Origin: a virus
DNA length: 23,854 bases
Direction: 5' to 3' (one strand)
Virus record (IMG/VR): IMGVR_UViG_3300026518_000059
Coordinates: 1-23,854 of that record
This document shows positions 2,155 through 22,231 of the stretch, one piece after another (positions within the stretch are counted from its first letter, which is position 1; each line of letters starts with the position of its first letter). The translations under genes and the position numbers were made by a program. The notes under the pieces were generated by a model. It was not told where the DNA came from. It worked only from the letters and a program-made list of their open reading frames with translations, and did not search any database.

Positions 2155-4554
2155 TCACCCACCCTGATAGTCAAACAGCGCGCCGCGCGTGCGGGCAGCA
2201 TGTTCGCGCTCTTTCTCGGCCAGCGCCTCGGCGACTGCCTGCTTTGTCTGCTCCGGATCACCGCCCTGCACCGTCATGTGCAGCGTGTAGCTGGCGCGGT
2301 TATCCTGATGCACCACCGCAGGCGATGGTGATGACACCGCTCCAGCGGGGCGGACGGCCGACAGATCAGGCAACGACGCAATCGCCACCGGCTGAATCAG
2401 CGGCTTCGGTTGAGCCATCGCAGGCGCAGTGGCCACCATTGTTGCCGCCAGCGCGGCAGGGGCGGCTTTGGCGATGGCCGGCTTGTTGTCGGATGAAAAG
2501 AGCGAAGCCAGCTTGCCACCCAGCGCATCCCCCCCGATGCCGCCAAGAATAGAGCCGATCAGGCCGCCGACCGCCGTGCCGATGACGGGCACAACGCTGC
2601 CTATGGCTGCGCCAGCCGCGCCGCCGGCCAGAGCGCCGCCGATGCCGCCGACATCCTGTGTGATCTCCGCGCCCTTGTTTTTACTATCGCCCAGCAGGGT
2701 TGATGCAATCGATATGCCCGCAATGCCTGCGCCAATCAGGCCTCCCTTCCCTTTCAGGAAGCGGCCAGCGCCCTTCAGCTTGTTTTTCAGCCCCTTGCCG
2801 CCGAAGAAGCCGCCGCCGGATTGCTCCAGCGATTCCGCCAGCGCCCTCTTTCTTGCCAGCAACGCGCCTTTTGCCATGACGATGTTCAGTGCTGCATAGG
2901 CTGTGATCAGAGGCGCGGCGACCAGAGCCAGAGCGCCCAGCCCTCCAACCAACGCCAACACCACTGCGGTCACTTTTGGGAAACGATCAGCCAGCGCCGA
3001 AACCCAATCCACAACAGGGGAGACCGCATCCAGAACCTTGTTGAGCGCCGGTGTGAGCCGGTTTCCAAATGAGATCGCCAGCTTCTCCAGGCGATTGTTG
3101 AACAGTGTGATGGCGTTTTCGGTGGTTTTGCTGCGCACATCAAATTCGCGTTGCGCCGAACCGGCAAAGGCGGCTTTCTCGCGGGTCAAATCAAAGGCGT
3201 GGCGCACGTTGTCCAGATTTTTCAGCAGTGGCGCAATCGCACCGACTGTTTCCAGCCCGAACAACTGCTTCAAGATGGCCGGTTGCTTCGCCTTATCCAG
3301 TTTCGACATGGCGGCAAACACATCCATGATTGCGCCCTTTGCATCGGTCTGCATGCGCTCTGCCATCGCCGATGCATCCAGCCCCAAACTGGCCAGCGCA
3401 TCCTTCTGCATCTTCGTGGCGGCCGTTCCGGCAGCCAGCGACAAGGTTAGATTCTTCATGCCGGTTGCAGCGATCTCCGGGGCGGCACCGGATGAGAGCA
3501 GCGCAGCACCAAGGCTGGCCACCTCTGTTGACGTCAGCCCGGCGCTCATGGCCACCGCCCCCTGCCGCTCAATCACAAGGGAGAGATCAGCGGCATTCGC
3601 ATTCATATTGTTGGATAGATGGTTGACGGCATCGGCCAGGCTATTGGCCTGCTGTTGCGTCAGCCCCAGGCCTTGCCGCCAGTTGGCCATAATCTTGCCC
3701 GCCTGTTCACCGGTCAGATCAAAAGCGACCCCCATCTTTGCGGCGCTATCCGCGAAGGCGAGCAGCTGTTGGCGTGGGATATTGGCCTGACCTGCCGCCG
3801 CGATAATATCGCCAATCCCCTTCGCGGATAGAGGGATGACCGTGGAGAGATTCAGAATATCCTTGCGCATCTGCCTGAATTGTTGCGGCGTATCGAAATT
3901 CACCACCTTACGCACATCGGCCATCGTGGATTCAAATGACACGGCAGCTTCAACAGGCCGGGTCAGTGCCCCTGTGAGTTTACGACCAACATTTTCGACG
4001 CCGCCAGCAACCAGCGAGATGTTGGCCGCTTTCTGAATGGCCTGATCATATTTCTGCTGTGCGTGCTGCAGTCTGCCCTGCGCTTGAGCCATCTGCTCCA
4101 TCTTGCGTGTAGCGACATCCATCTTTGCATTGAGGTCATCCTCCGCCGATGCGAGATGGCGGACATCCACGCCCGCACCTTGCAGCTCATTGCGCAACGG
4201 CCGGAGCTCTTCAAGCTGCCTTTTGTATTGATCCTTGAGGCGGGCTGATATTCGCTTTGCCCGTTCAAACTCGCTAGCCATCTGCTTGGTCGGCTTATCG
4301 GTCGCGGCAATAGCCTTACCCAGCGCGGCAACCTTTGCCTGCGCTGCTCTCATGCTGGCTGCCGTTTCCCGTAGCCTGCCGCCCAATGCCCTGAACTGTG
4401 CGATTGTCCGCTGCTGATGCGCCAGTGCATTGATGGACTTCTGCCCTTTCAGCATGGCGCTGGTCATCTTATCGCTCATGCCGACGATCTTCTTCACGGG
4501 CGCGGTGAACTTATCAACAGCGCTGATGAGAATGGACATATCAAGCGATTTCAA
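2155..4554 (-). CDS. T: Tail tape measure protein, TP901 family
   Basis: This 799-residue protein sets tail length and is ejected ahead of the DNA. Residues about 40-180 are charged and helical (coiled coil). About 200-420 is the TP901-type core (SFESTMADVRKVVNF, GDIIAAAGQANIP, GLTSTEVASLGAALLSSG). After about residue 520 there are hydrophobic segments, then a long Gly/Ala-rich stretch that could insert in the host membrane, and a short acidic/basic tail. The start is TTG at 4554: AAGGAG sits exactly 8 nt upstream, while the first ATG (4539) is 23 nt away from it. By the usual rule of about 0.15 nm per residue the tail would be about 120 nm (inference). The 5' end overlaps a plus-strand promoter (4533-4561). 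Confidence 0.95.
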   Translation of the reverse strand: MKSLDMSILISAVDKFTAPVKKIVGMSDKMTSAMLKGQKSINALAHQQRTIAQFRALGGRLRETAASMRAAQAKVAALGKAIAATDKPTKQMASEFERAKRISARLKDQYKRQLEELRPLRNELQGAGVDVRHLASAEDDLNAKMDVATRKMEQMAQAQGRLQHAQQKYDQAIQKAANISLVAGGVENVGRKLTGALTRPVEAAVSFESTMADVRKVVNFDTPQQFRQMRKDILNLSTVIPLSAKGIGDIIAAAGQANIPRQQLLAFADSAAKMGVAFDLTGEQAGKIMANWRQGLGLTQQQANSLADAVNHLSNNMNANAADLSLVIERQGAVAMSAGLTSTEVASLGAALLSSGAAPEIAATGMKNLTLSLAAGTAATKMQKDALASLGLDASAMAERMQTDAKGAIMDVFAAMSKLDKAKQPAILKQLFGLETVGAIAPLLKNLDNVRHAFDLTREKAAFAGSAQREFDVRSKTTENAITLFNNRLEKLAISFGNRLTPALNKVLDAVSPVVDWVSALADRFPKVTAVVLALVGGLGALALVAAPLITAYAALNIVMAKGALLARKRALAESLEQSGGGFFGGKGLKNKLKGAGRFLKGKGGLIGAGIAGISIASTLLGDSKNKGAEITQDVGGIGGALAGGAAGAAIGSVVPVIGTAVGGLIGSILGGIGGDALGGKLASLFSSDNKPAIAKAAPAALAATMVATAPAMAQPKPLIQPVAIASLPDLSAVRPAGAVSSPSPAVVHQDNRASYTLHMTVQGGDPEQTKQAVAEALAEKEREHAARTRGALFDYQGG

Positions 4555-4561
4555 TTATACT
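4533..4561 (+). promoter_or_regulatory. Near-consensus sigma70 promoter reading rightwards
   Basis: A -35 box TGGACA (4533-4538, 5/6 match) is separated by exactly 17 nt from a -10 box TATACT (4556-4561, 5/6 match). The expected start of transcription is at 4568-4569, at or next to the ATG of the plus-strand ORF. It lies across the start of the tape measure gene but points the other way. It is the only near-consensus promoter found on the plus strand next to an ORF in a gap. Confidence 0.55.
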
Positions 4562-4568
4562 GCTCCTT

Positions 4569-4742
4569 ATGATGCGTATCGTTCACTATTTCAGCCACCC
4601 TATGCGCCTGTGCGGGCTGATTTTCTCACTTGTTACGCTGGCCGTGATGCTGCCTGTTGATGCGCAGCTGGCGATCATGCTAGCGCCGTGCATGTATCCG
4701 CTGGGCTGGGGCTTTATGGGGTTGATTCCTTCACTGGATTGA
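4569..4742 (+). CDS. Small two-helix membrane protein on the opposite strand, candidate moron
   Basis: This 57-residue ORF starts ATG ATG and exactly fills the gap between the tape measure start (4554) and the E' stop (4743). The protein has a basic N-terminus (R3, H6, H10, R13), then hydrophobic segments at about residues 14-30 and 33-54, with Pro/Gly/Trp (YPLGWGF) in the second. Seven of ten leucines use CTG, as expected for real coding sequence here. There is no Shine-Dalgarno sequence, but the promoter at 4533-4561 would start RNA at the ATG, fitting a leaderless message. The minus strand of the gap has no plausible ORF. The family is not recognised. An inner-membrane lysogenic-conversion or superinfection role is only a guess, and a chance ORF cannot be excluded. 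Confidence 0.5.
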   Translation: MMRIVHYFSHPMRLCGLIFSLVTLAVMLPVDAQLAIMLAPCMYPLGWGFMGLIPSLD

Positions 4743-4886
4743 TCACGCCTTATCTGTCAGCAGCCCCATTTCAAACGCGCCTTTCACGCACTCAATCGCC
4801 TCATCCACATCCATCCGCTTAATCTCGGATGGCTGCCAGTGAAACGCTGCGGCAAGCTGGATGGTCAGCCGCCGCAGCGTTTCCAT
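4743..4886 (-). CDS. E': Tail assembly chaperone E', GpE family; likely made as a -1 frameshift extension
   Basis: This 47-codon frame is too short for most gene callers. It carries the P2 GpE-type core (LAAAFHWQPSEIKRMDVDEAIE), in which Phe-His-Trp-x-Pro-Ser-Glu is the hallmark. It is in the -1 frame relative to the preceding gene, and the slippery heptamer at 4895-4901 joins the two in frame without an intervening stop. The internal ATG at 4886 has only a poor ribosome binding site, so the fused product (about 129 residues) is the likely main form. In P2 the equivalent E+E' product chaperones the tape measure protein. Confidence 0.85.
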   Translation of the reverse strand: METLRRLTIQLAAAFHWQPSEIKRMDVDEAIECVKGAFEMGLLTDKA

Positions 4887-4901
4887 GCCTATTCCAAAAA
4901 A
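4841..4901 (-). promoter_or_regulatory. Programmed -1 frameshift signal: slippery heptamer plus stem-loop
   Basis: The heptamer T_TTT_TTG (4901-4895) is in the correct phase of the upstream frame (TCT TTT TTG), two codons before its TAG stop. Eleven nt downstream begins a perfect 13-bp stem (GAAACGCTGCGGC, 4883-4871, with 4853-4841). The 17-nt loop can pair further (GCTG/CAGC). Slipping back one base reads TTT TTT GGA ATA GGC ATG and enters E' in frame. The same heptamer is the one described for P2 E/E'. Confidence 0.85.
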
Positions 4902-5131
4902 GAGGCCACAGCCTCACTGGCCTGATTGAAATCATGCGCATCCAGCCTGCGCACATCATCCGGCGCGATCTCGCCAATCAGGGAGAGCAGGCGAATCGAT
5001 TTGCCCAACTCGTCCTTTTCCCTGTTCATCAGCTCCAGATCGCCCACTGTGACGCGGCGCAGATTGAGGCTGGTGATTTTCTCACCAGCCACCTCGATGG
5101 GATACTTCAGCGTAATGACCTCACCGCTCAT
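4889..5131 (-). CDS. E: Tail assembly chaperone E (Mu gp41 / P2 gpE family)
   Basis: This 80-residue protein has the family pattern of small tail assembly chaperones. A short beta N-terminus (SGEVITLKYPIEVAGEKI) is followed by LRRVTVGDLELM and a helical acidic C-terminus with LTGE-like ISLIGE and DAHDF. It sits between tube and tape measure, as in all P2/Mu tails, and should bind the tape measure protein before tail polymerisation. ATG 5131 overlaps the tube stop (TGATG); TTG 5134 is the alternative start. The last codons contain the T_TTT_TTG slippery site. Confidence 0.9.
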   Translation of the reverse strand: MSGEVITLKYPIEVAGEKITSLNLRRVTVGDLELMNREKDELGKSIRLLSLIGEIAPDDVRRLDAHDFNQASEAVASFLE

Positions 5132-5640
5132 CAAACCACCCCAAGATTAGCGCGGGTCAGTGCCAGCTGATCCACGCCATTGACCTTGCGGATCATCCCC
5201 TGCACGTCGATCTCATGCAGCTCGACGCCCTCGATGGAGAGGTTGTAATACTCCAGCATCAGCTGGCATTTCAGCTTCGCCACTTCGCCCGGCTTCCAAG
5301 TGCCCATGTCGAGCTCTTTGATGCGGCCGCGCATCTTGACAACCACAGCCACCGACAGGCCGGTGGACGGGTTCTGCATGCTGCCACGCGCGGTGAATGA
5401 GCTGCTTGTGCCGATCTGGATGCCCCAGAGCGAGATGGTGTGCGGGTCATATTCGATCAGCGTAAAGTCGGCCTCCAGCTTCTCCATGCCGGTGTCCACC
5501 TCCAGCGGCACATCCATGCCACCGGCGCGCAGCTCCTCGGTTTTAAGCGTCAGCTTCGGCGGATTGATCTCCTCTGCCTTACCGAGAAAGCCGAAGCCAT
5601 CCACAAACAGATTAAAATCTTTCAATACACTGGCAATCAT
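5131..5640 (-). CDS. FII: Major tail tube protein, P2 FII family
   Basis: This 169-residue protein has the length and motifs of the P2 FII tube family. These are FNLFVDGFGFLGKAEEINPPKL at the start, AGGMDVPLEVDTGMEKLEADF, GTWKPGEVAKLKCQLMLEYY, and an ELHEIDV ending. It polymerises into hexameric rings to form the inner channel of the contractile tail. The ATG at 5640 overlaps the stop of the preceding 58-residue gene (ATGA), and AAGGAGG lies in that gene's last codons, giving coupled translation. Confidence 0.95.
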   Translation of the reverse strand: MIASVLKDFNLFVDGFGFLGKAEEINPPKLTLKTEELRAGGMDVPLEVDTGMEKLEADFTLIEYDPHTISLWGIQIGTSSSFTARGSMQNPSTGLSVAVVVKMRGRIKELDMGTWKPGEVAKLKCQLMLEYYNLSIEGVELHEIDVQGMIRKVNGVDQLALTRANLGVV

Positions 5641-13229: not shown

Positions 13230-14153
13230 TTAGCCTACGTTCTGCAGCAGGAAGCCGGAGGTGATACCGGAGAGCACCGGCACACGCTCATAGCCAACCG
13301 GATAGATCCAGCTCTTGCAGTTCTTGTCGTAGTACGGCTCTTCAACCAGCGGATTGCCATCCATCGTGTAGGTGTAGCCATAGGATGGCTCCTCCAGCGT
13401 GGAGGCCATGCTCGGCACATAGGCCAGCACAGCATCATTGCCCCAGATATCGGTTGATACACCCGCATCATTGAAGCTGATCGCTACGCCAACCACCACC
13501 TTCTGGAGGTTCCAGATGCTGGCCAGCATTTCAGCCGTCACGGAATCGGAGCTGGTGTATTTGAAGCGATTGAGCACATTGGCGTTGTTTTTGGCCGCAT
13601 TGAACGCCTTGGCCGACAGCACAATCACATTCGGATAGATGCCGACCGAGCTGCGAATCGCTTCGCGCCCCGCATCAATATCGGTGATCGGATTATTGGC
13701 ATCGTTTGTCCACTTGGCTGCAGCCAGATCGACCTTGTGATTGGCATCGTAGTTATTGGGATCACGCGCCAGCGCGGCCTGATCGTTTTCGAGCGCAAGG
13801 GATAGTGAGCTCATCACCATATTGACTGCTCGTGTTCCCAGATCGATGCCGGGCACAGCCTTGGCATCACGCAGGTGCTCGCGCGGCACCTGGCCTTCGA
13901 GCGAATCATCAACCAGCGCGAATGGCTTGCCGGTGTAGCCGAACTGCACGCGCTTGGTCGGTCCGCCTGGCACGCGGCGAGCCGCATAGAGCTTGAAGCT
14001 CTCTTTGCCGAACTCAATCACCTGGCCGCCGGATACCCCGACAGGCACGCGGGGGAACAGTGCGTTGCCGACATGCTCGGCGTGCTTGTAACCCTGAACT
14101 ACGTTACTGAGGATCGGATCGATGACCCGCACCTGTGAATTATTCATACCCAT
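13230..14153 (-). CDS. Major capsid protein
   Basis: This 307-residue protein lies right after the decoration gene, where major capsid proteins of this module type lie. Sequence features are an N-terminal HAEHVGNALFPRVPVGVSGGQVIEF, a loop with RVPGGPTKRVQFGYTGKPFALVDDSLEGQVPREH, helices with MVMSSLSLALENDQAALARDP, GREAIRSSVGIYPNVIVLSAKAF, and a beta C-terminus. It is not close to the classical Mu gpT sequence; an HK97-type fold is assumed from the family. AAGGAG lies 8 nt upstream. A hairpin at 13164-13197 follows it. Confidence 0.9.
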   Translation of the reverse strand: MGMNNSQVRVIDPILSNVVQGYKHAEHVGNALFPRVPVGVSGGQVIEFGKESFKLYAARRVPGGPTKRVQFGYTGKPFALVDDSLEGQVPREHLRDAKAVPGIDLGTRAVNMVMSSLSLALENDQAALARDPNNYDANHKVDLAAAKWTNDANNPITDIDAGREAIRSSVGIYPNVIVLSAKAFNAAKNNANVLNRFKYTSSDSVTAEMLASIWNLQKVVVGVAISFNDAGVSTDIWGNDAVLAYVPSMASTLEEPSYGYTYTMDGNPLVEEPYYDKNCKSWIYPVGYERVPVLSGITSGFLLQNVG

Positions 14154-14180
14154 ATTTCAATCTCCTTAAGTTATCTGTTC

Positions 14181-14519
14181 TTAATTCTGGATCAGCAGCA
14201 CTTCGATGAAGTCGCCGGCTGCGGCTGCGGCCTGTAGCGCCCGGCCAACTGTGACGCCTGTGGTTTTGGTAACAGCCCGGCCTGTTGCATCTGTTTCGAC
14301 CGCAGCGCCCGCCGCAATAGCGCCGCCGGCCTCAACAATGGCCGTGCCGACCACATCGATCGCCAGGCCTGCATTCAGCGTGGCATCTTCCCTAGCCACG
14401 CCAAGGGTGTTGACCCCGGCGCCAGCCTGAGTGTTGCCGGGGGTGACAAAACGGTGCTTTGTGATTGCGCCAGATGCCACGATGGACAGTGTTAAAATGG
14501 AAATGGATTGCATACTCAT
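14181..14519 (-). CDS. Capsid decoration/cement protein, DUF2190 family
   Basis: This 112-residue protein is very rich in Ala, Gly, Thr and Val, with the DUF2190 pattern: ITKHRFVTPGNTQAGAGVNTLGVAREDA, GLAIDVVGTAIVEAGGAIAAGAAVETDATGRAV, and VGRALQAAAAAGDFIEVLL. It is a small beta-barrel trimer that fastens the mature shell. An AGGAG ribosome binding site overlaps the protease end. It lies between the protease/scaffold and the major capsid gene, matching phage lambda D-like positions. Confidence 0.93.
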   Translation of the reverse strand: MSMQSISILTLSIVASGAITKHRFVTPGNTQAGAGVNTLGVAREDATLNAGLAIDVVGTAIVEAGGAIAAGAAVETDATGRAVTKTTGVTVGRALQAAAAAGDFIEVLLIQN

Positions 14520-14522
14520 GGT

Positions 14523-15029
14523 TTATTCTCCTGTTGAGACGGCCTTGACCGCAGTGATATAATCAACCTTGTTGGACTCCGCGAAGGCGATCGCTTTAGC
14601 ATGGATCGCGGCCTTTTCGCTGTTCACCTCAAAACCGGCCGGCACATTCACAGTCACCCCCAGTCCTTTATCAACTTCATCGCCCGATGCGTGCTCACCG
14701 AATTCAACAACCTTCGGCTGCGCATCCAGATAGCCCTTCATAAATTCCAGCGGCGTTTTCTTCACAGTCTCCTCGCCTTCTGCGAAATCGACCGTGGCCT
14801 CATGCTCCAGGCCGGCCATGAACTCGATCAGATTATCTTTCTGCGCCGGCATCACCTTGCCTGCATTCACCAGCGCTTCGACAAAGTCGGCACACGCGCT
14901 GCGGTGTGCCAACCGCTCCCGCTCCACCAATGCCTGTTCACGCTCGGAGAACGCCGCATTCTGGGCATTCAGTTCTTCCTGCCGGGCATCCAGCTCCGCC
15001 TGTCTGGCGGCAAGTTCTTCAGGTGTCAT
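14523..15029 (-). CDS. Z: Nested scaffold protein (Mu gpZ type), internal start in the protease gene
   Basis: An in-frame ATG at 15029 is preceded by AAGGAGG with a 5-nt spacer, a nearly perfect ribosome binding site inside the protease frame. The product would have 168 residues. Its first 45 form a heptad-like coiled coil (ELAARQAELDARQEEL..., SEREQALVERERLA), then helical segments, ending in KVDYITAVKAV. In Mu the scaffold Z is made the same way from the 3' part of gene I. Expected role: assembly core of the prohead, digested by the protease. Confidence 0.8.
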   Translation of the reverse strand: MTPEELAARQAELDARQEELNAQNAAFSEREQALVERERLAHRSACADFVEALVNAGKVMPAQKDNLIEFMAGLEHEATVDFAEGEETVKKTPLEFMKGYLDAQPKVVEFGEHASGDEVDKGLGVTVNVPAGFEVNSEKAAIHAKAIAFAESNKVDYITAVKAVSTGE

Positions 15030-15710
15030 CTCACCCTCCTTTAATGTTTTTTCTGAAAATGCAGGGGTGATTTCCCCTTGGGGTTGTTCTTTTTTTTCTT
15101 TCGCCGCTTCGGCCTGGAGATAATCAACGTCATATCCCGAGACGGCCACGTCGGCATCCTCTTTGCCGAACTTAGCCAGAATCCACTCACGCAGATTGCG
15201 CCACATACCAGCCTCGATACGATCCTCAAATTCTCCGAACTCCACCGTAAGGATATCGCCATCACCTTCCCCTTCCCCAAACTCAAACCCGCTGAGCCCT
15301 TTAATGGCAGGCGCCTGTGCGCCGAGAAAGCCAAGGTGACGCGGATACCATACGCCGGGAGCCGGGTTCAATTCATTGTCGGGGTGGTAGAAAGACATAC
15401 TGCGTTTTTTGAAAGCGCCGGAGTTATGCAGCTCAGCAAAATCGGGATTCACCTGTTTGGGAGTGACATAAAAATCAGCACCATCCACAGCACATGATTC
15501 AATCCAGCCATAGGCCGGCGCCTTGCCTTCGGGATGGCCAATCACCAGGGGTGCTTCGTGCAGATCAGGGTTGTATGCTTTTGCGGACTCCGCCAGATCG
15601 GCAGCGGTAATGGTCACCTTCTGGCCAAGCCTTGTGGTGTGCGTGCCTGCGATAAATGCATGGATGGGTTTGGTTTCGCCTGCTTTCCTGTTTGCCATAG
15701 GGCGAACCAT
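14523..15710 (-). CDS. I: Prohead maturation protease, with C-terminal scaffold domain (Mu gpI type)
   Basis: This protein has about 395 residues from ATG 15710. The protease part begins KPIHAFIAGTHT and continues with DLHEAPLVIGHPEGKAPAYGWI, FAELHNSGAFKKRSMSFYHP and GVWYPRHLGFLGAQAPAIKGL, the motif series of Mu-type capsid proteases. A Lys/Glu-rich linker (KEKKEQPQGE) follows, then a coiled-coil scaffold part. The open frame extends to ATG 15773 and TTG 15806, but a strong terminator lies over that part. Homologues start at about the KPIHAF segment, so ATG 15710 or 15698 is preferred, though neither has a clear ribosome binding site. Named by analogy with Mu gene I; the tail gene at 9353-10000 is the unrelated P2 gene I. 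Confidence 0.92.
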   Translation of the reverse strand: MVRPMANRKAGETKPIHAFIAGTHTTRLGQKVTITAADLAESAKAYNPDLHEAPLVIGHPEGKAPAYGWIESCAVDGADFYVTPKQVNPDFAELHNSGAFKKRSMSFYHPDNELNPAPGVWYPRHLGFLGAQAPAIKGLSGFEFGEGEGDGDILTVEFGEFEDRIEAGMWRNLREWILAKFGKEDADVAVSGYDVDYLQAEAAKEKKEQPQGEITPAFSEKTLKEGEMTPEELAARQAELDARQEELNAQNAAFSEREQALVERERLAHRSACADFVEALVNAGKVMPAQKDNLIEFMAGLEHEATVDFAEGEETVKKTPLEFMKGYLDAQPKVVEFGEHASGDEVDKGLGVTVNVPAGFEVNSEKAAIHAKAIAFAESNKVDYITAVKAVSTGE

Positions 15711-15717
15711 AGGGGGT

Positions 15718-15757
15718 AAAAAAAACGATCCCTCCGGAACCGCTTCCGCAGGGATCG
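15718..15757 (-). terminator. Strong intrinsic terminator in front of the protease
   Basis: On the minus strand CGATCCCT (15757-15750) pairs with AGGGATCG (15733-15726). After one mismatch CGGAA pairs with TTCCG around a GCGG loop, and eight T follow directly (15725-15718). It lies between gpG and the protease domain. If the longer protease frame were used it would be inside coding sequence; with start 15710 it is just upstream of the gene. Confidence 0.85.
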
Positions 15758-15833
15758 CATCTTCACCTGTCATGGGTAAGATGCCTCGGTTATGCGGTAT
15801 TGGCAAGGATTGGCCTGCGGCGGGACGCCCCTA

Positions 15834-15872
15834 CAATGAAATGCGGTTATACATCGCGTAATGATTTCATTG
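15834..15872. repeat. Inverted repeat across the gpG stop codon
   Basis: Arms of 9 bp (CAATGAAAT at 15834-15842 and ATTTCATTG at 15864-15872) surround a 21-nt loop and cover the end of the gpG gene. No T-run follows the hairpin on either strand. An adjacent GC-rich GTAGGGGCGTCCCGCC (minus strand) resembles edges of dispersed palindromic repeats, but only one copy is seen here. Confidence 0.4.
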
Positions 15873-16313
15873 CAGCGCAGCGGCAATATGATCATCGATG
15901 ATGTGCAGAATCTCCGCCTCATCGTCGCTACTGATGCCCAGGAACGGCCGGGCGGGGATGGCGCCATCTTCCGAGCCGAACTGGTGGGTCGCGCCGTAGA
16001 TCAGATTGGTGCCGAATTCCAGTTCATTGCCGCTGTTATTGTAGTGCAAGGATCCCATCAGGTCACCATGCTCAATCAACACCTTGTCAGCGTTCTTCTT
16101 TTTGCGCGCCAGCGTACTTTCGGCCAATGGCTCCCATTGCTTGCCTTCCGGATCCACGCCATCGGCAAAGCGCTGCCGGTGGGATCGAATCAGGTGTTCA
16201 CCAATCTCCGTAAGTGCAGGGGATATATCTCCGGCCACCTGCGCCAGCCGCTTTAGCCTGGCTTTCACTTCCTTATCATCGTAGGTGATGTGGATAATGC
16301 TTGCGCCTGCCAT
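15867..16313 (-). CDS. G: Virion morphogenesis protein, Mu gpG / P2 gpS family
   Basis: This 148-residue protein has the family order: a charged helical N-terminus (DDKEVKARLKRLAQVAGDISPALTEIGEHLIRSHRQRF), then DPEGKQWEPLAESTLARKK, HGDLMGSLHY, LEFGTNLIYGATHQFGSEDGAIPARPFLGIS, and an acidic helix. These proteins work at the head-tail joint or tail completion. The start has AGGAG 7 nt upstream. It is separated from the MuF gene by a 101-nt gap with a hairpin, one of the few places where the operon is not tightly packed. Confidence 0.92.
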   Translation of the reverse strand: MAGASIIHITYDDKEVKARLKRLAQVAGDISPALTEIGEHLIRSHRQRFADGVDPEGKQWEPLAESTLARKKKNADKVLIEHGDLMGSLHYNNSGNELEFGTNLIYGATHQFGSEDGAIPARPFLGISSDDEAEILHIIDDHIAAALQ

Positions 16314-16385
16314 GATAATCTCCTATAATGCTCCTGATCTCATGTGCGCTAGAGGGTTCCGGCTACCCGGCAATGACGTACAGAG

Positions 16386-16415
16386 AGAAAGGCTGCGCCG
16401 GAACGCAGCCTTTCT
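16386..16415. terminator. Hairpin terminator touching the MuF stop codon
   Basis: A perfect 12-bp stem (AGAAAGGCTGCG / CGCAGCCTTTCT) with a 6-nt loop begins at the last base of the MuF stop codon. On the minus strand it is followed by a pyrimidine-rich CTCTCTG, on the plus strand by TATTTTA. It could act in both directions. In the leftward direction the U-tract is poor, so partial read-through into gpG is likely. Confidence 0.6.
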
Positions 16416-17680
16416 TATTTTACTGCGCGCTTATAGAGGCGAACCCCGCGCCTGTTCTTATCCACCTTCCGATTAAAATCATCTGAGCTTTCCGATGTGT
16501 GTACGGTTATGCCTTCCCATGCCCCGGTGTTGCGCTGCATAACAATCAAGGCAAGATATTGCTCGCCGCCAACAATGTAGCGACTCACATACGCTCGGCT
16601 GGTAATGGCTGTCGCCTCTTTGCGATGCCATTCAACCCACGTCCAAATCTCATCAGGATGCTTCAGGGAATCAGCCAGCATATTCAATTGCGCGCTGCGG
16701 GTACCTTTACCCATCTTCCACCTGCCAGAATCGTTTTTAAACATGGCATCAGAAATCACCACAGCCTCGCCGCTAACATCGGTGAAGATGACTGGTTTTC
16801 CTACATCTGCCTTAAATTGCTTCAGGAACAGTCGGGCATATTTTTCATCCTGCCCTTTTGGCATGGGCGGCAATAGCTTGTCCTTGGGAAACGAACGGGG
16901 ATCCTGCATCAAATCCGGCGCGCCGCGCTCCGGCACCACCTTGAAATCATGTTTGCCGGTTTGGTCAAAGGGGAATGGAGATACATCACTGGCGCGCAGG
17001 GCGTGCGCATGCATCCAGGATGATCGACCCGGCGCATAAGCCCAGCCGGGGCCAACACCCTCAGGCACGGTGAGGGTGCGCGGATTCGGGCCGCGTGTGC
17101 CGATCTCCACTTTGCGCATGGAAAGATTGGGAGAGTCGGATATTTTCAGCCCCTTGCGATTCAATGCCGCCTTGCTGTGGCCGGTCACGGTGCATTTGCA
17201 GCCAAAACCATTCGGTGGGTAATTCGTATCCCAGAATGGATCATCCTTCGGCAGGATCAGGCCATCCCATTGCACATGCTGCTGACGGGCATTTTCAGAT
17301 GCGGGCGAGTGGTGATATTGCCAGTAGTCCAGCTTCTGCAGCTGGGCATATCGTCCGGCCTGATAGCTGGTGCGCAGGTTGGTTTCATAGATCACGCGCG
17401 AACGCCAGCCGCGCTTGCCGTTATATTCCCAGCCATGCGCCTCTACGATGCGATCAAACTCTTTGCGGAATTCGGCCAGGGTAGAGCCGTTTTCAATAGC
17501 CTTCTGAACCGATGCCTGGAAATCCTCCAGCAGCGCCATGCGATTGGCGCCGGCCACCACAAAGGCGTGGTCATGATTGCCGTGGATCATATCTGTCCAT
17601 GAGCGAGTTGGCAGCGCCAGTTTCTTTCTGAAAAAGGCGATCTGCGCATCAAACGGCAAAGAGCCGTGCTTCACCGCCAT
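16415..17680 (-). CDS. F: Minor head protein (Mu gpF family) fused to a PBECR2-like nuclease domain
   Basis: This protein has 421 residues. Residues 1-175 are the MuF domain: SLPFDAQIAFFRKKL, HAFVVAGA, YETNLRTSYQAGRYAQL, QHVQWDGLILPKDDPFWDTNYPPNGFGCKCTV. Residues about 180-285 are a linker. Residues 285-419 form a second domain: FLKQFKADVGKPVIFTDVSGEAVVISDAMF, then HPDEIWTWVEWH, and the strand pair SRAYVSRYIVGGEQYLALIVM with a basic tail. This matches the phage-Barnase-EndoU-ColicinE5/D-RelE-type nuclease domain found at the end of some MuF proteins (family knowledge). gpF binds the portal inside the head, so the extra domain could be delivered with the DNA. Start ATG 17680 has only a weak ribosome binding site. 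Confidence 0.92.
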   Translation of the reverse strand: MAVKHGSLPFDAQIAFFRKKLALPTRSWTDMIHGNHDHAFVVAGANRMALLEDFQASVQKAIENGSTLAEFRKEFDRIVEAHGWEYNGKRGWRSRVIYETNLRTSYQAGRYAQLQKLDYWQYHHSPASENARQQHVQWDGLILPKDDPFWDTNYPPNGFGCKCTVTGHSKAALNRKGLKISDSPNLSMRKVEIGTRGPNPRTLTVPEGVGPGWAYAPGRSSWMHAHALRASDVSPFPFDQTGKHDFKVVPERGAPDLMQDPRSFPKDKLLPPMPKGQDEKYARLFLKQFKADVGKPVIFTDVSGEAVVISDAMFKNDSGRWKMGKGTRSAQLNMLADSLKHPDEIWTWVEWHRKEATAITSRAYVSRYIVGGEQYLALIVMQRNTGAWEGITVHTSESSDDFNRKVDKNRRGVRLYKRAVK

Positions 17681-17791
17681 GAGAGATACTCTGTAACATA
17701 GTTATAACACGCTAGAGCAAGGGGGTTCGTTTTTTTGTGTCTGTTGGTGCGTCGGACTCTGTAAAAGCGACTCAGCGGCGATTCTGCGGGC
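17681..17791 (-). promoter_or_regulatory. Gap before MuF with possible extended -10 promoter
   Basis: This 111-nt gap between portal and MuF has no ORF on either strand. On the minus strand TGTTATAAC (17709-17701) is an extended -10 element (TATAAC, 5/6) with no recognisable -35 17 nt upstream. It lies about 20 nt before the MuF ATG. A weak internal promoter for the head genes is possible; there is no other evidence. Confidence 0.3.
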
Positions 17792-19348
17792 TCACCTCTC
17801 ACGGTTTACCTCATACTGCCCCGTCAACTCTGCCGTTGTCAATGCTTTGGCCATCACCTCGGTGATCTTCTCTGTGCTCATATCGCCCAGCAGCTCCGGC
17901 AGCCGGTTAGCGAATTCAGACAGATCGGCCACTTCATCGAGCAGGCCGCGCACCTGGTTAATCATGGCATCGGTGATCGGTGCAGCCTCTTTGGCCAACT
18001 GATCCGCCAGCAGCTCTGCAGCATCCGGCGCCGCCGCATGTTCGGCAAAGGATGCCGGGGGGCTGCCACCCGTCTTCGCGGGGGTGGCGGCAGGTGTGGT
18101 ATTGGACATGGGCGCGGATGGATCCCCCAGCTTCACATCGTACTGCTCTTCCACATAGACCTGATCGAGATGGCGGCCGGATGCCTGGCTCAGCTTCAGA
18201 TCGCGATCCGCCTTTTCACCCAGATCTTCGCAATCTTCCATATCGCGCCAGATATGCGGCGCTGCAGCACCGGGAAAGTTGAACTCGGTAAACCAGTACA
18301 TCAGCGTTTCATTCAGCGTGTCCGAAAGCAGATCGGCATCGGATTTGGCAACGGCATCCTTGACCCCTTCATGCACATTACCCAGTGCCTGACTGCCGCG
18401 ATCGCCCTGTGATGTGGTCAGCGTTTGCGACAGCACCGCCGTGGTAATGGCCTGATCCATGCGATCAATCAGTTGCTCATGCGTGCTGATGCCCGATTTT
18501 GCCGCCTCAATCAACTCCACTGCCATGCCTTCAGGTACTGCGGTGACCGAATTGGAACGCAGGGCGCGCAAGGCATCCAGCATCCTGTTTTTGGTCGCTT
18601 CATCGGCATCGGATGGATAAGTGCCCTTAGCCGATGGCGAGCCGAATTTATCGATAAACTGCAGCCACAGCCCCATGCCTTCGCGCTTGAATCGCACCGG
18701 CCAGTAGAGCCAGTAGCCCAGGCCAGTGCCATACGGGTTGTCATCATCCAGCCCGCCCACCGAATGCACGATGAATTTGCGCGGCGGCAGTTCTTCACCC
18801 TCAAAAGGCTTGTCACGTGTTTTCAGGCGCAGCACCGGCTCCAGCCGCAAGGCGCGCTTCACATCCTCATAACTGTTGCTGGCAGGCGTGCTGGTGTGCA
18901 GTGGTGCAAACACAAAACGCTGTGATCGCTTGATTTTGATCGCAGCCGGCCAGATCATGCCATCTTTGAGACTCCAGATGATTTCACCCACGCCCCAGCC
19001 CTTGAGCAGCGCCTGCAGCAGAAATCTCTCTGTCAGCCGATCAAAGCGCAGCGATCGAATCATCTCCTCCGCTGCTTCGGCGGCACGCTTATCCAGCGCC
19101 GAATCGCCGCCGGCGCGCACATCATAATCGCGCGATGTAACCGCTGTGATGCGTTGTTGCAGACATGATCGCACCCGATCATCACGATAGACATCCTCAT
19201 AGACCGAGAGCTTGCCGCCCACGGATTTAAGTACTTTATCTTCATTGATGCGGATATTGCCCAGATAACCGCGCGTGATATCAACTTGCGGATCATCGCT
19301 GGCATACTCGATGGTGAGATCGCTGCTTATTTTTGTTGTACTTGTCAT
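17792..19348 (-). CDS. Portal protein, DUF935 family (Mu gp29)
   Basis: This 518-residue protein starts at ATG 19348, 1 nt after the preceding stop (TGA A ATG); the longer frame overlaps the neighbouring gene and was rejected. DUF935 features are GYLGNIRINEDKVL, YEDVYRDDRVRSCLQQRITAVTSRDY, RFLLQALLKGWGVGEIIW, GYWLYWPVRFKREGMGLWLQFIDKFGSPSAKGTYPSDA, and SQTLTTSQGDRGSQALGNVHEGVKDA. The C-terminal 120 residues (Ala/Pro-rich, then a helical LLDEVADLSEFANRLPELL) are probably inside the head and near MuF. It forms the dodecameric DNA channel at the head vertex. Confidence 0.96.
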   Translation of the reverse strand: MTSTTKISSDLTIEYASDDPQVDITRGYLGNIRINEDKVLKSVGGKLSVYEDVYRDDRVRSCLQQRITAVTSRDYDVRAGGDSALDKRAAEAAEEMIRSLRFDRLTERFLLQALLKGWGVGEIIWSLKDGMIWPAAIKIKRSQRFVFAPLHTSTPASNSYEDVKRALRLEPVLRLKTRDKPFEGEELPPRKFIVHSVGGLDDDNPYGTGLGYWLYWPVRFKREGMGLWLQFIDKFGSPSAKGTYPSDADEATKNRMLDALRALRSNSVTAVPEGMAVELIEAAKSGISTHEQLIDRMDQAITTAVLSQTLTTSQGDRGSQALGNVHEGVKDAVAKSDADLLSDTLNETLMYWFTEFNFPGAAAPHIWRDMEDCEDLGEKADRDLKLSQASGRHLDQVYVEEQYDVKLGDPSAPMSNTTPAATPAKTGGSPPASFAEHAAAPDAAELLADQLAKEAAPITDAMINQVRGLLDEVADLSEFANRLPELLGDMSTEKITEVMAKALTTAELTGQYEVNRER

Positions 19349-19349
19349 T

Positions 19350-19895
19350 TCACCACCCCGTCGACCGCAATAGCAGTGCCAGCGGCACATAGAGAGCCAG
19401 CAGCCAGACACTGATTGCATAGCGCCTGATACGCTTTTCCAGCGCCTGCGTGGATCGTTTGTTGATTTCATCCAGCGTGGAGAGCAGACGCGCTTCTGTT
19501 TGATGGTCGGCCAATGCGTAAGGCTCATTAAACTCAACCATCAGCATGCCGGGAAGGGTAGCCTGCTGTGGTGACATCAGCGCCACTGAGAGGGCAAAGC
19601 CGCAAGCAAAACCAAAAGCCAGCCACAGATCGGCATGATGACCGCCAAACAGCCCCGCCGCTGTAAACAACGCTGACGCGGCCAGCCATAGATGCCCCAT
19701 GTTGCCCGCGCGTGTCACCACCGCCAGTTCACGTGCAATCAGGCGATCATGCATGCGCCGCGCTTCATCGATAAGCAGCTGCACCACTTCCTGCCTGGCC
19801 GGCTCCGGCAGTGGTGATGATTGCCCTGTTTCAACATTCAATACGACATTCAGTGCATCATCGTTACTCATGTTTAGCTTTGTCTTGTCAGCCAT
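19350..19895 (-). CDS. Three-helix membrane protein between terminase and portal, unknown function
   Basis: This 181-residue protein starts behind AGGAG (7-nt spacer). Residues 1-60 are soluble and charged (PARQEVVQLLIDEARRMHDRLIARELAVVTR). Hydrophobic segments lie at about residues 66-85, 89-108 and 159-177, separated by a helical stretch (LLSTLDEINKRSTQALEKRIRR). No family is recognised. Mu itself has no gene here. Possible roles are a second holin-like or envelope-associated protein or a superinfection factor; none is shown by the sequence. The reading frame is well supported by spacing (9 nt after terminase, 1 nt before portal). Confidence 0.75.
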   Translation of the reverse strand: MADKTKLNMSNDDALNVVLNVETGQSSPLPEPARQEVVQLLIDEARRMHDRLIARELAVVTRAGNMGHLWLAASALFTAAGLFGGHHADLWLAFGFACGFALSVALMSPQQATLPGMLMVEFNEPYALADHQTEARLLSTLDEINKRSTQALEKRIRRYAISVWLLALYVPLALLLRSTGW

Positions 19896-19904
19896 AAAAG
19901 ACTC

Positions 19905-21368
19905 CTATCGCGCGCCGGAAATGCCGGCGCTTGCTCCCATAAATGCGCCATAGTCAATATCCATTTCGCCCGTGTAGGCGGAACGGTCGGATGGCTTCGC
20001 ATCGGTTACAAAATCAACGTCGGCAACCGGCGTGGATGCCGCCTCGCAGGCCAGCGCCAGCGCCCAGAAGCGGTCGGCATGGCCGGCGGCGGTGCGTTCG
20101 GCGGTGAAGCGGATGTTGCCGGCGGCAGTGACCGTTTTGGTGACGGCACGCAGATCGGCGCGCACCACCGGATCGTAGGGGATGCGCAACTTGCGATCCT
20201 CCATGCGGCCGCGCACCGGATAGGCCATCGCCTCTTTGACTTGCCCGGAGAAGGTGACCAGCTCCACGCGATGCGCACCGAACTTCGCCTGGGCATCATC
20301 GCCCCAGCCGATGCCGAGGCCTGTATAGTCGAAATCGGTGCGGCGGCAGTGCGCAATCCACGGCCAGATGATCTTCTCCTGATCCGGCTTGCTCATCTTC
20401 TTCAGCGTGATGATCTTGCGCGTATAGAAGACATCGCCCAGTTTCTCGATAATCCACAGCACGGTCAGATCGCTGGTGCGGCCGATATCGAGCCCGGCAT
20501 AGAATTGCCGCTTCGATGCAGTGCTGACAAACGCATCGTAATCGATTTCCCAGGGCTCACCGGCGCCATATTCGCATGAGGCGATCAGGTCGTATTCCAG
20601 GAAGGCGCCATCATCATCGCCCGGGATGCACATATATTCCTGCTGGAATGATTCATCGTCAGCACAGCCATTGCGGATAAAGTCGAAATAGTCCGCCTCA
20701 TCCATATCCTGCTGCTCGGCGTCAACTGGCAGCGCCTGCTGCAGTTTGTAGAGGAAGCCCTGATCGAGCGCATCCTGCAGCGTCACTCTGTGCAGGCTCA
20801 GCTTTTTCGGATTGCCTTTTTCCCTGGCTTCGGTGATCAGTTCATTGAAGAAGTTCTTACTGCCGCGATGGGTGGAGATCACCTCCATCTGGCCGCCCCA
20901 TGTCAGGCCTGGGTAGGCAATGCTCCACATCTGGCGCGGATCGTTGCCGAGGGCAAACTCATCGAGCACACGGCCGCCGCGCTTGCCGGCCTGCGCATCG
21001 GGGTTGGAGCTCATGGAGTAGATGCAGCGGCCGGAGGCGAAACGCAGCACCTGCGCGGAGATGTTGCGCTTCTCATCGAGCACCACCTCGCCCAGATCCT
21101 GCGCAGCGGCATCGAATGCCTTCGCCCACATCTTGCAATCCATCAGAAACAGCTTGGCCTGAATCTCATCGCGGGAAGATACCCACATGTCCCACTTTGC
21201 ACCGGCCACAGAAACCCGCTCAACCAGCGGATAGGCAGTGCTCCACGATAAGCCGATCTGGCGCGACTTCTCCATCAATTTCAGCCGGGATCGATCCTTG
21301 ATCCAGCGCTCCTGATACGGGAGAAAGATCGCGTCGGGGTTGGCGGGGATGCATTTTGCGCGACCCAT
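19905..21368 (-). CDS. Large terminase subunit, Mu gp28 type
   Basis: This 487-residue protein is the packaging motor ATPase and nuclease. A deviant Walker A lies at residues 33-43 (EKSRQIGLSWS), Walker B at about 134-139 (VLDEFA), and the coupling motif at about 165-169 (STHRG). The C-terminal nuclease begins AGLDIGRTSDLTVLW (D294), with further acids in FDYTGLGIGWGDDA and in GHADRFWALALA. GAGG lies about 10 nt before ATG 21368. It pairs with the small subunit directly upstream. Headful packaging with host flanks is known for Mu-type enzymes but cannot be seen here. Confidence 0.96.
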   Translation of the reverse strand: MGRAKCIPANPDAIFLPYQERWIKDRSRLKLMEKSRQIGLSWSTAYPLVERVSVAGAKWDMWVSSRDEIQAKLFLMDCKMWAKAFDAAAQDLGEVVLDEKRNISAQVLRFASGRCIYSMSSNPDAQAGKRGGRVLDEFALGNDPRQMWSIAYPGLTWGGQMEVISTHRGSKNFFNELITEAREKGNPKKLSLHRVTLQDALDQGFLYKLQQALPVDAEQQDMDEADYFDFIRNGCADDESFQQEYMCIPGDDDGAFLEYDLIASCEYGAGEPWEIDYDAFVSTASKRQFYAGLDIGRTSDLTVLWIIEKLGDVFYTRKIITLKKMSKPDQEKIIWPWIAHCRRTDFDYTGLGIGWGDDAQAKFGAHRVELVTFSGQVKEAMAYPVRGRMEDRKLRIPYDPVVRADLRAVTKTVTAAGNIRFTAERTAAGHADRFWALALACEAASTPVADVDFVTDAKPSDRSAYTGEMDIDYGAFMGASAGISGAR

Positions 21369-21377
21369 GCGGCTAGC

Positions 21378-21932
21378 CTACCTCATGCCCAATACGTCGC
21401 GCCGGATCCGCTCCACTGTTTCGGGTGATACACCGGCCTGTGCCGCCACGGCGCCGGCCTTCTCGGCCGCCTCTTCGCGGGCGCGCCGGCGCTCATCTTC
21501 ACGGATATCGCGCTCGCGATCTTCATTGATGGCTGCGGCTTTCTCCAACCGTCCGATCGTCAGCGCCATGCTGTTGAGCATATCCTCATCCATCTCGATG
21601 GTGCCATTGTAAGCATCGCGCGTTTTGGCGAAGGCGAGCAGCTGCAGCATCTGGTTGGTGGTGCGGTTGGTGTGCACCGGATCACCGGCGAACTCGCGCT
21701 CCATCGCGCGGATCTCCTGCATGCGCGCCGATATCGATTTCTGCCGCTTGCCGAGCCGCGCCACTGCCGAGCGGCTGATCGGCTCATCCAGCTCAATGCC
21801 GCGCGCTTTGATCTGCGCCATCAGCCAGCGGTGATGGCCATCATAATCGCGATGGCCGGACTCCCGGATGCGATCGATCAGCTCATCACGCAGATCCTGC
21901 GGTAGTTGCGATATTTTACTCGGTGGCGCCAT
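21378..21932 (-). CDS. Small terminase subunit, DUF3486 (Mu gp27)
   Basis: This 184-residue protein starts at ATG 21932, overlapping the preceding stop (TAATG). Residues 8-65 are a helix-turn-helix part (LPQDLRDELIDRIRES, SRSAVARLGKRQ). A long helix with RTTNQMLQLLAFAKTRDAY follows, then a very charged coiled region (EDRERDIREDERRRAREEAAEKA). This is the DUF3486 layout of Mu-type small terminases that recognise the packaging start. It lies directly before the large subunit. Confidence 0.92.
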   Translation of the reverse strand: MAPPSKISQLPQDLRDELIDRIRESGHRDYDGHHRWLMAQIKARGIELDEPISRSAVARLGKRQKSISARMQEIRAMEREFAGDPVHTNRTTNQMLQLLAFAKTRDAYNGTIEMDEDMLNSMALTIGRLEKAAAINEDRERDIREDERRRAREEAAEKAGAVAAQAGVSPETVERIRRDVLGMR

Positions 21933-22231
21933 TATTCCCCCGGTCTCGGGCGAGCCACGCCCGGGTGACGCGCACGCCCCATGCCGACATCCACGCCGCG
22001 CTGGGTGGCCTTGGCCACAATCATCCCCGCGCCAGCCCGCTCTGTCGTAATCAGCCCCTGCTCTTCCAGCCAAGCGATATCCGCGCTCACCACATCGGCC
22101 GACACGCTGTGGCCATACTCCGAGAGCAGGCCATGCAGCACATAGTGATTGATGGCGTAATCCGGATCATCCGCCAGCGCGCGGAGAATCACCAAGCGAC
22201 GATGCTCGCGTTCAATATCAGACAGTGCCAT
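21932..22231 (-). CDS. Winged-helix phage protein, Mu gp26-like
   Basis: This 99-residue protein reads as a winged helix: IEREHRRLVILRALADDPDYAINHYVLHGLLSEYGHSVSADVV, recognition helix DIAWLEEQGLITTE, then a wing and a basic, Arg/Pro-rich tail. Proteins of this kind stand just before gp27 in Mu-like phages; their exact role is unknown, and a part in DNA recognition for packaging is possible. Both ends overlap neighbours (TAATG). Confidence 0.85.
   Translation of the reverse strand: MALSDIEREHRRLVILRALADDPDYAINHYVLHGLLSEYGHSVSADVVSADIAWLEEQGLITTERAGAGMIVAKATQRGVDVGMGRARHPGVARPRPGE

Follow-up and report, generated by a model that had tools for sequence, protein, structure and literature searches.

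Antisense genes for small predicted membrane proteins, probably leaderless, form a new family at the chaperone/tape-measure junction of P2-like phages

The window, which is the whole 23.9-kb contig that was analysed, comes from a genome assigned to the family Mariprofundaceae (Zetaproteobacteria), as do the named relatives, the MAG contigs JAUZQR010000114 and JALSZZ010000092. Its minus strand carries a P2-like tail operon in the order sheath, tube FII, E, E', T, U, D. The gene for the tail tube protein FII (5131..5640; PF04985) is followed by that for the tail assembly chaperone E (4889..5134; PF10109), which has a slippery site, TTTTTTG, near its 3' end ahead of the stop codon. E' (4743..4886), the frameshift extension of E, lies in the -1 frame after it, as in P2, and is like Phage_P2_GpE (PF06528) at a level below the cut-off. 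The tape-measure protein T (2155..4554; PF10145) was taken to start with the TTG at 4552-4554 and not with the ATG at 4539, given the fitting distance to the Shine-Dalgarno sequence AAGGAG (4563..4568, minus strand) and an ATG at the equivalent codon of the related locus L163. A Mu-like head module (MuF-like minor head protein, protease and portal) lies at 13230-22073 of the window despite the P2-like tail. No integration or repressor module was found in the annotated parts of the contig.

Between the end of E' (4743) and the start of T (4554) lie 188 nt without a sense gene, the only sizeable gap of the tail operon. An earlier note, made from the letters of this DNA, had proposed that the gap is filled by a plus-strand gene of 57 codons for a two-helix membrane protein. 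The ORF is present as described, running from an ATG at 4569 to a TGA at 4740-4742, and its stop codon directly adjoins that of E' (minus strand, 4745-4743). The feature flagged in that note begins at 4533 with a promoter that is located within the T coding sequence. The 57-aa product has two hydrophobic stretches, a basic N-terminus and an acidic C-terminus. AlphaFold2, run with a 17-sequence alignment, predicted a helical hairpin with helices at residues 3-27 and 32-56 (pLDDT 84, pTM 0.56). By the positive-inside rule, the charges of the termini suggest an N-in, C-in topology, with both ends in the cytoplasm and a tiny periplasmic turn.

The E'-T spacing could be read automatically in 92 P2-like loci, with a reading that misplaces T in L159 and L098, and was at most 38 nt in 82 of them. 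E' and T overlap or are no more than 25 nt apart in P2, KS5, WO, ECOO78, MAR, FoX3 and AcaML1. The gap is also closed in L182, which has no antisense ORF. The antisense gene thus separates two genes that lie next to each other in relatives, as expected of a moron, and the suggestion of a moron-like insertion is upheld by P2, KS5 and L182, where the gene is absent and the gap closed. Other P2-like phages have small one-helix membrane proteins in the same slot, namely L058 (2526-2699) and L062 (2660-2875, both on reverse-complemented loci) and L087 (from about 4057). These share the position of the antisense gene but are encoded on the sense strand, have one helix and show no evident relation to it.

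Loci of relatives were collected through FII, which served as the anchor, E and a T alignment. About 20 phage contigs of the window's clade have an E'-T gap of 170-460 nt, and in every one of them an antisense ORF is intact and encodes a small predicted membrane protein, in most cases with two helices. The survey of related phages that the earlier note had recommended therefore found the ORF in all gap-bearing members and a closed gap where it is absent. The proposed antisense membrane-protein gene is conserved as a protein across these contigs, and no close relative in the clade was found to have the ORF broken by stops in retained DNA.

The relatives form two groups according to the type of T. 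Group A, with a T like that of the window, consists of the window locus (W), L163, L164, L170, L171, L173, L175, L176, L027, L159, L160, L025 and L026. Group B, with a different T, consists of L165, L166, L167, L168, L181, L184, L185 and L189, and its antisense ORF is ~90 aa long and runs antisense into E'. The Sedimenticola loci L161 and L028 are similar to group B but more weakly. In L160 (=L021), two tandem copies are fused in frame, giving a 143-aa antisense ORF with four predicted helices. The W ORF is homologous to the L163 ORF (z 6.4; none of 500 profile- and hydropathy-keeping shuffles was as good) and matches the group B profile (3 of 3000 shuffles as good). Within group A it matches other members via L163 only, and profiles from the rest of the group, including the first profile (L159, L025, L027 and L160), did not recognise it. 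W is therefore assigned to the family by way of L163 and the group B profile, and the family is either highly divergent or has been partly replaced by analogues.

No credible family for the antisense ORF was present in Pfam, PHROGs, PADLOC or NCBIfam, and an Rfam search gave no match. Neither tblastn of two family members against 50,697 phage records nor Foldseek against viral models (E ≤ 0.001) gave a match. Neither the ORF nor T retrieved any relative when scanned as a single protein, and the weak hits of the ORF in genomes (E 0.03-0.5) were consistent with chance. The earlier statement that no family was recognised holds for public libraries but has to be amended, as sequence comparison places the ORF in a new family, defined here and absent from the family libraries searched.

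Taken alone, the W ORF is weak evidence for a gene and only modestly unusual. In dinucleotide shuffles of the gap, an ORF this long was found in 104 of 3000 and one also this hydrophobic in 26 of 3000, which is suggestive only; the significance derives from the relatives. Over clade pairs, dN/dS (Nei-Gojobori) was 0.07-0.48, with 0.07 for L027/L164, 0.17 between the tandem copies of L160 and 0.36 for W/L163, where dS is near saturation. The group B values were 0.21 (L165/L189), 0.22 (L166/L181), 0.31 (L166/L184) and 0.48 (L168/L185). In most pairs, the differences were concentrated at the third position of the antisense codons, as in L027/L164 (16/8/31 for positions 1/2/3, p = 0.0006), while the W/L163 pair was non-significant on its own (34/22/35, p 0.18). 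Antisense position 3 corresponds to position 1 of the codon-aligned sense frame, which argues against a sense gene. These patterns indicate that purifying selection operates on the amino-acid sequence of the antisense frame, and the ORF is almost certainly a real protein-coding antisense gene. That it is instead a chance ORF, in a spacer retained for DNA or sense-RNA reasons, draws on the ease with which shuffles reach 57 codons and is contradicted by the conservation of the family, the dN/dS values, the recurring promoter geometry described below and the in-frame maintenance of the L160 tandem duplication. We regard it as hardly credible.

The promoter proposed in the earlier note is present on the plus strand at 4533-4561 and is the sole promoter-like site in 4300-5000 (0.5 expected). 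Its -35 element, TGGACA (4533..4538), lies within the 5' end of T, antisense to it, and its -10 element, TATACT (4556..4561), lies 17 nt further on and 7 nt ahead of the ATG, with the Shine-Dalgarno sequence of T between the -10 and the ATG. No Shine-Dalgarno sequence precedes the antisense ATG at 4569, as had been claimed, and no plus-strand terminator was found in 4300-5000. At the sequence level, the gene thus has the promoter of its own that characterises a moron, without a terminator of its own, and the -10 about 6-7 nt ahead of an ATG that lacks a Shine-Dalgarno sequence is the arrangement of a leaderless gene.

The distance between promoter and ATG is conserved in relatives, in keeping with the leaderless geometry first proposed for the window. 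In 10 of 11 group A lineages the ATG lies 6-7 nt past a near-consensus sigma70 promoter. The arrangement is perfect in L175 (TTGACA-17-TATAAT-6-ATG) and recurs in L163 (TGGACA-17-TATCAT-6), L170 (TGGACA-17-TAAAAT-7), L025 (TTGACA-17-TAAAAT-6), L027 (TTGACA-17-TATCGT-6), L164 (TTGACA-18-TATCGT-7), L159 (TTGACA-17-TAAATT-7), L160 (TTGACA-17-TATGTT-7) and, if the second Met is the start, L173 (TTGACA-18-TATCAT-7). Because some start codons had been hand-picked among several in frame, all in-frame ATGs were tested against every ATG of the same contigs. A score of at least 10/12 at 5-8 nt from the ATG was found for 10 of 11 group A loci, compared to only 10 of all 4711 ATGs. TTGACA is partly dictated by the T start ATGTCAA, and the -10 alone at the fixed distance was enriched too (Fisher p 1e-7 in group A, 2e-5 in group B). 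Group B loci mostly have an extended -10, TGC-TATNNT, 6 nt from the ATG and a weak -35. The exceptions are L176 and L167, whose TATACT stands 9 nt from the ATG and so beyond the range tested, and L161 and L028, which are without a clear promoter. The -10 lies upstream of the Shine-Dalgarno sequence of T in L025, L027, L160, L164 and L175 and downstream of it in W, L163 and L170. Since it sits on either side, the signals of T cannot explain the constant geometry. Leaderless expression, as predicted from this geometry, is strongly supported and very likely. The lambda cI message is a natural phage example, being leaderless with its AUG at the 5' terminus (PMC4965119); cI is a repressor, unlike the antisense membrane protein, and the 5' end of the antisense message is a prediction.

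Two other readings bear on these features. As no plus-strand terminator was found, the RNA would continue antisense through E' and E, and the RNA itself could be the working product, one that in a lysogen would damp E and E' as well as tail genes upstream of them, with the peptide secondary. This is improbable, as the amino-acid sequence is under purifying selection and the RNA starts beyond the ribosome-binding site of T, which it cannot cover. The size of the product and its modelled hairpin topology resemble those of class II holins. A class II holin or antiholin is still less probable, given that the gene belongs to neither a lysis module nor a late operon but is antisense to the late tail genes, with a near-consensus sigma70 promoter ahead of it; a constitutive holin would kill the lysogen.

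The antisense ORF is the deepest or sharpest identity trough between several pairs of close phages. Identity between L159 and L025 is ~95% along the tail and 48-62% in the ORF, and between L183 and L184 it is ~90% compared to 61% in the ORF. Such a local trough is as expected for a specificity gene. The first 500-600 nt of T diverge as well in L159/L025 and in L183/L177. In the former pair of otherwise ~95% identical phages, T residues about 60-200 are sharply divergent. Co-evolution of the ORF and T, assessed by identity correlation, was not seen across group A pairs (Spearman about 0.1), so that a linked specificity of the two is only hypothetical.

An integrase in two records of the clade and a Mu transposase in one (the record of L165) fit a temperate lifestyle. 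We propose that a sigma70 promoter, embedded in the opening codons of T and its ribosome-binding region, would start a plus-strand RNA at the ATG or one base ahead of it, giving a leaderless message. Expression would be expected in the prophage, while the tail operon is silent. The predicted product, a small inner-membrane hairpin, may then act at the inner membrane against incoming related phages, by blocking either their tape-measure protein or the entry of their DNA. Superinfection exclusion appears to be the most likely role, with a chance that we place at or a little short of even. It is preferred because of the slot in common with HK97 gp15, the prophage-type promoter geometry and the fast local divergence. 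Overall, a prophage-expressed leaderless antisense gene for an inner-membrane exclusion protein is the best explanation, with a probability of about 0.5.

HK97 gp15 excludes superinfecting phages by blocking DNA injection, and hybrids that carry different tube and tape-measure genes escape it (PMC10883804). It is a 62-aa moron product and predicted inner-membrane protein of about the size of the antisense product (PMC10883804), and its gene is likewise located between the frameshifted tail chaperone (Gp14) and the tape-measure gene. In contrast to the antisense gene, that of gp15 is sense-oriented and has an annotated terminator, and its product combines a single N-terminal helix with a charged tail. 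The two proteins therefore share the chaperone/tape-measure location and not sequence similarity: BLASTP gave no match between them and hhalign a probability of 0.1%. The fun(Z) gene of P2, annotated as lysogenic conversion, is likewise an antisense gene placed among the late tail genes of a P2-like phage, but it is long, lies between G and FI, not E' and T, and does not encode a small membrane protein.

The same gene anatomy would fit a small membrane protein that is expressed from the prophage but serves another function, such as membrane stress, growth control or a block of tail assembly by binding T, a reading that we consider rather unlikely. A precedent for the last of these is Tab, a moron product of Pseudomonas phage JBD26 that the prophage expresses constitutively and that targets the tape-measure protein as assembly proceeds (PMC10884400). 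However, Tab is located between terminase genes, unlike the gene in the E'-T slot, and blocking the phage's own T would require a counter-protein. A narrower form of the exclusion reading is more doubtful again. It holds that the locus is a fast-evolving exclusion cassette, in which the leaderless antisense gene is nested in the translation start of its target, T, and the lysogen excludes phages by their tape-measure protein.

The gene is ordinary in kind, a moron, and new as a family. Its arrangement is unusual, being antisense, probably leaderless and with a promoter embedded in the start of the adjoining tape-measure gene. These results add a small membrane gene family that is missing from the libraries searched, in phages of iron-oxidisers that have no isolate in the collections searched. 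Over many lineages, they link the geometry of leaderless expression to a phage gene that is probably active in the dormant phase, and they show that genes for small membrane proteins have repeatedly occupied the chaperone/tape-measure junction, on one strand or the other. If the cassette reading were true, an exclusion gene and its target T would be inherited as one block. If exclusion is the role, the locus would offer a compact system for studying how tape-measure proteins meet the inner membrane.
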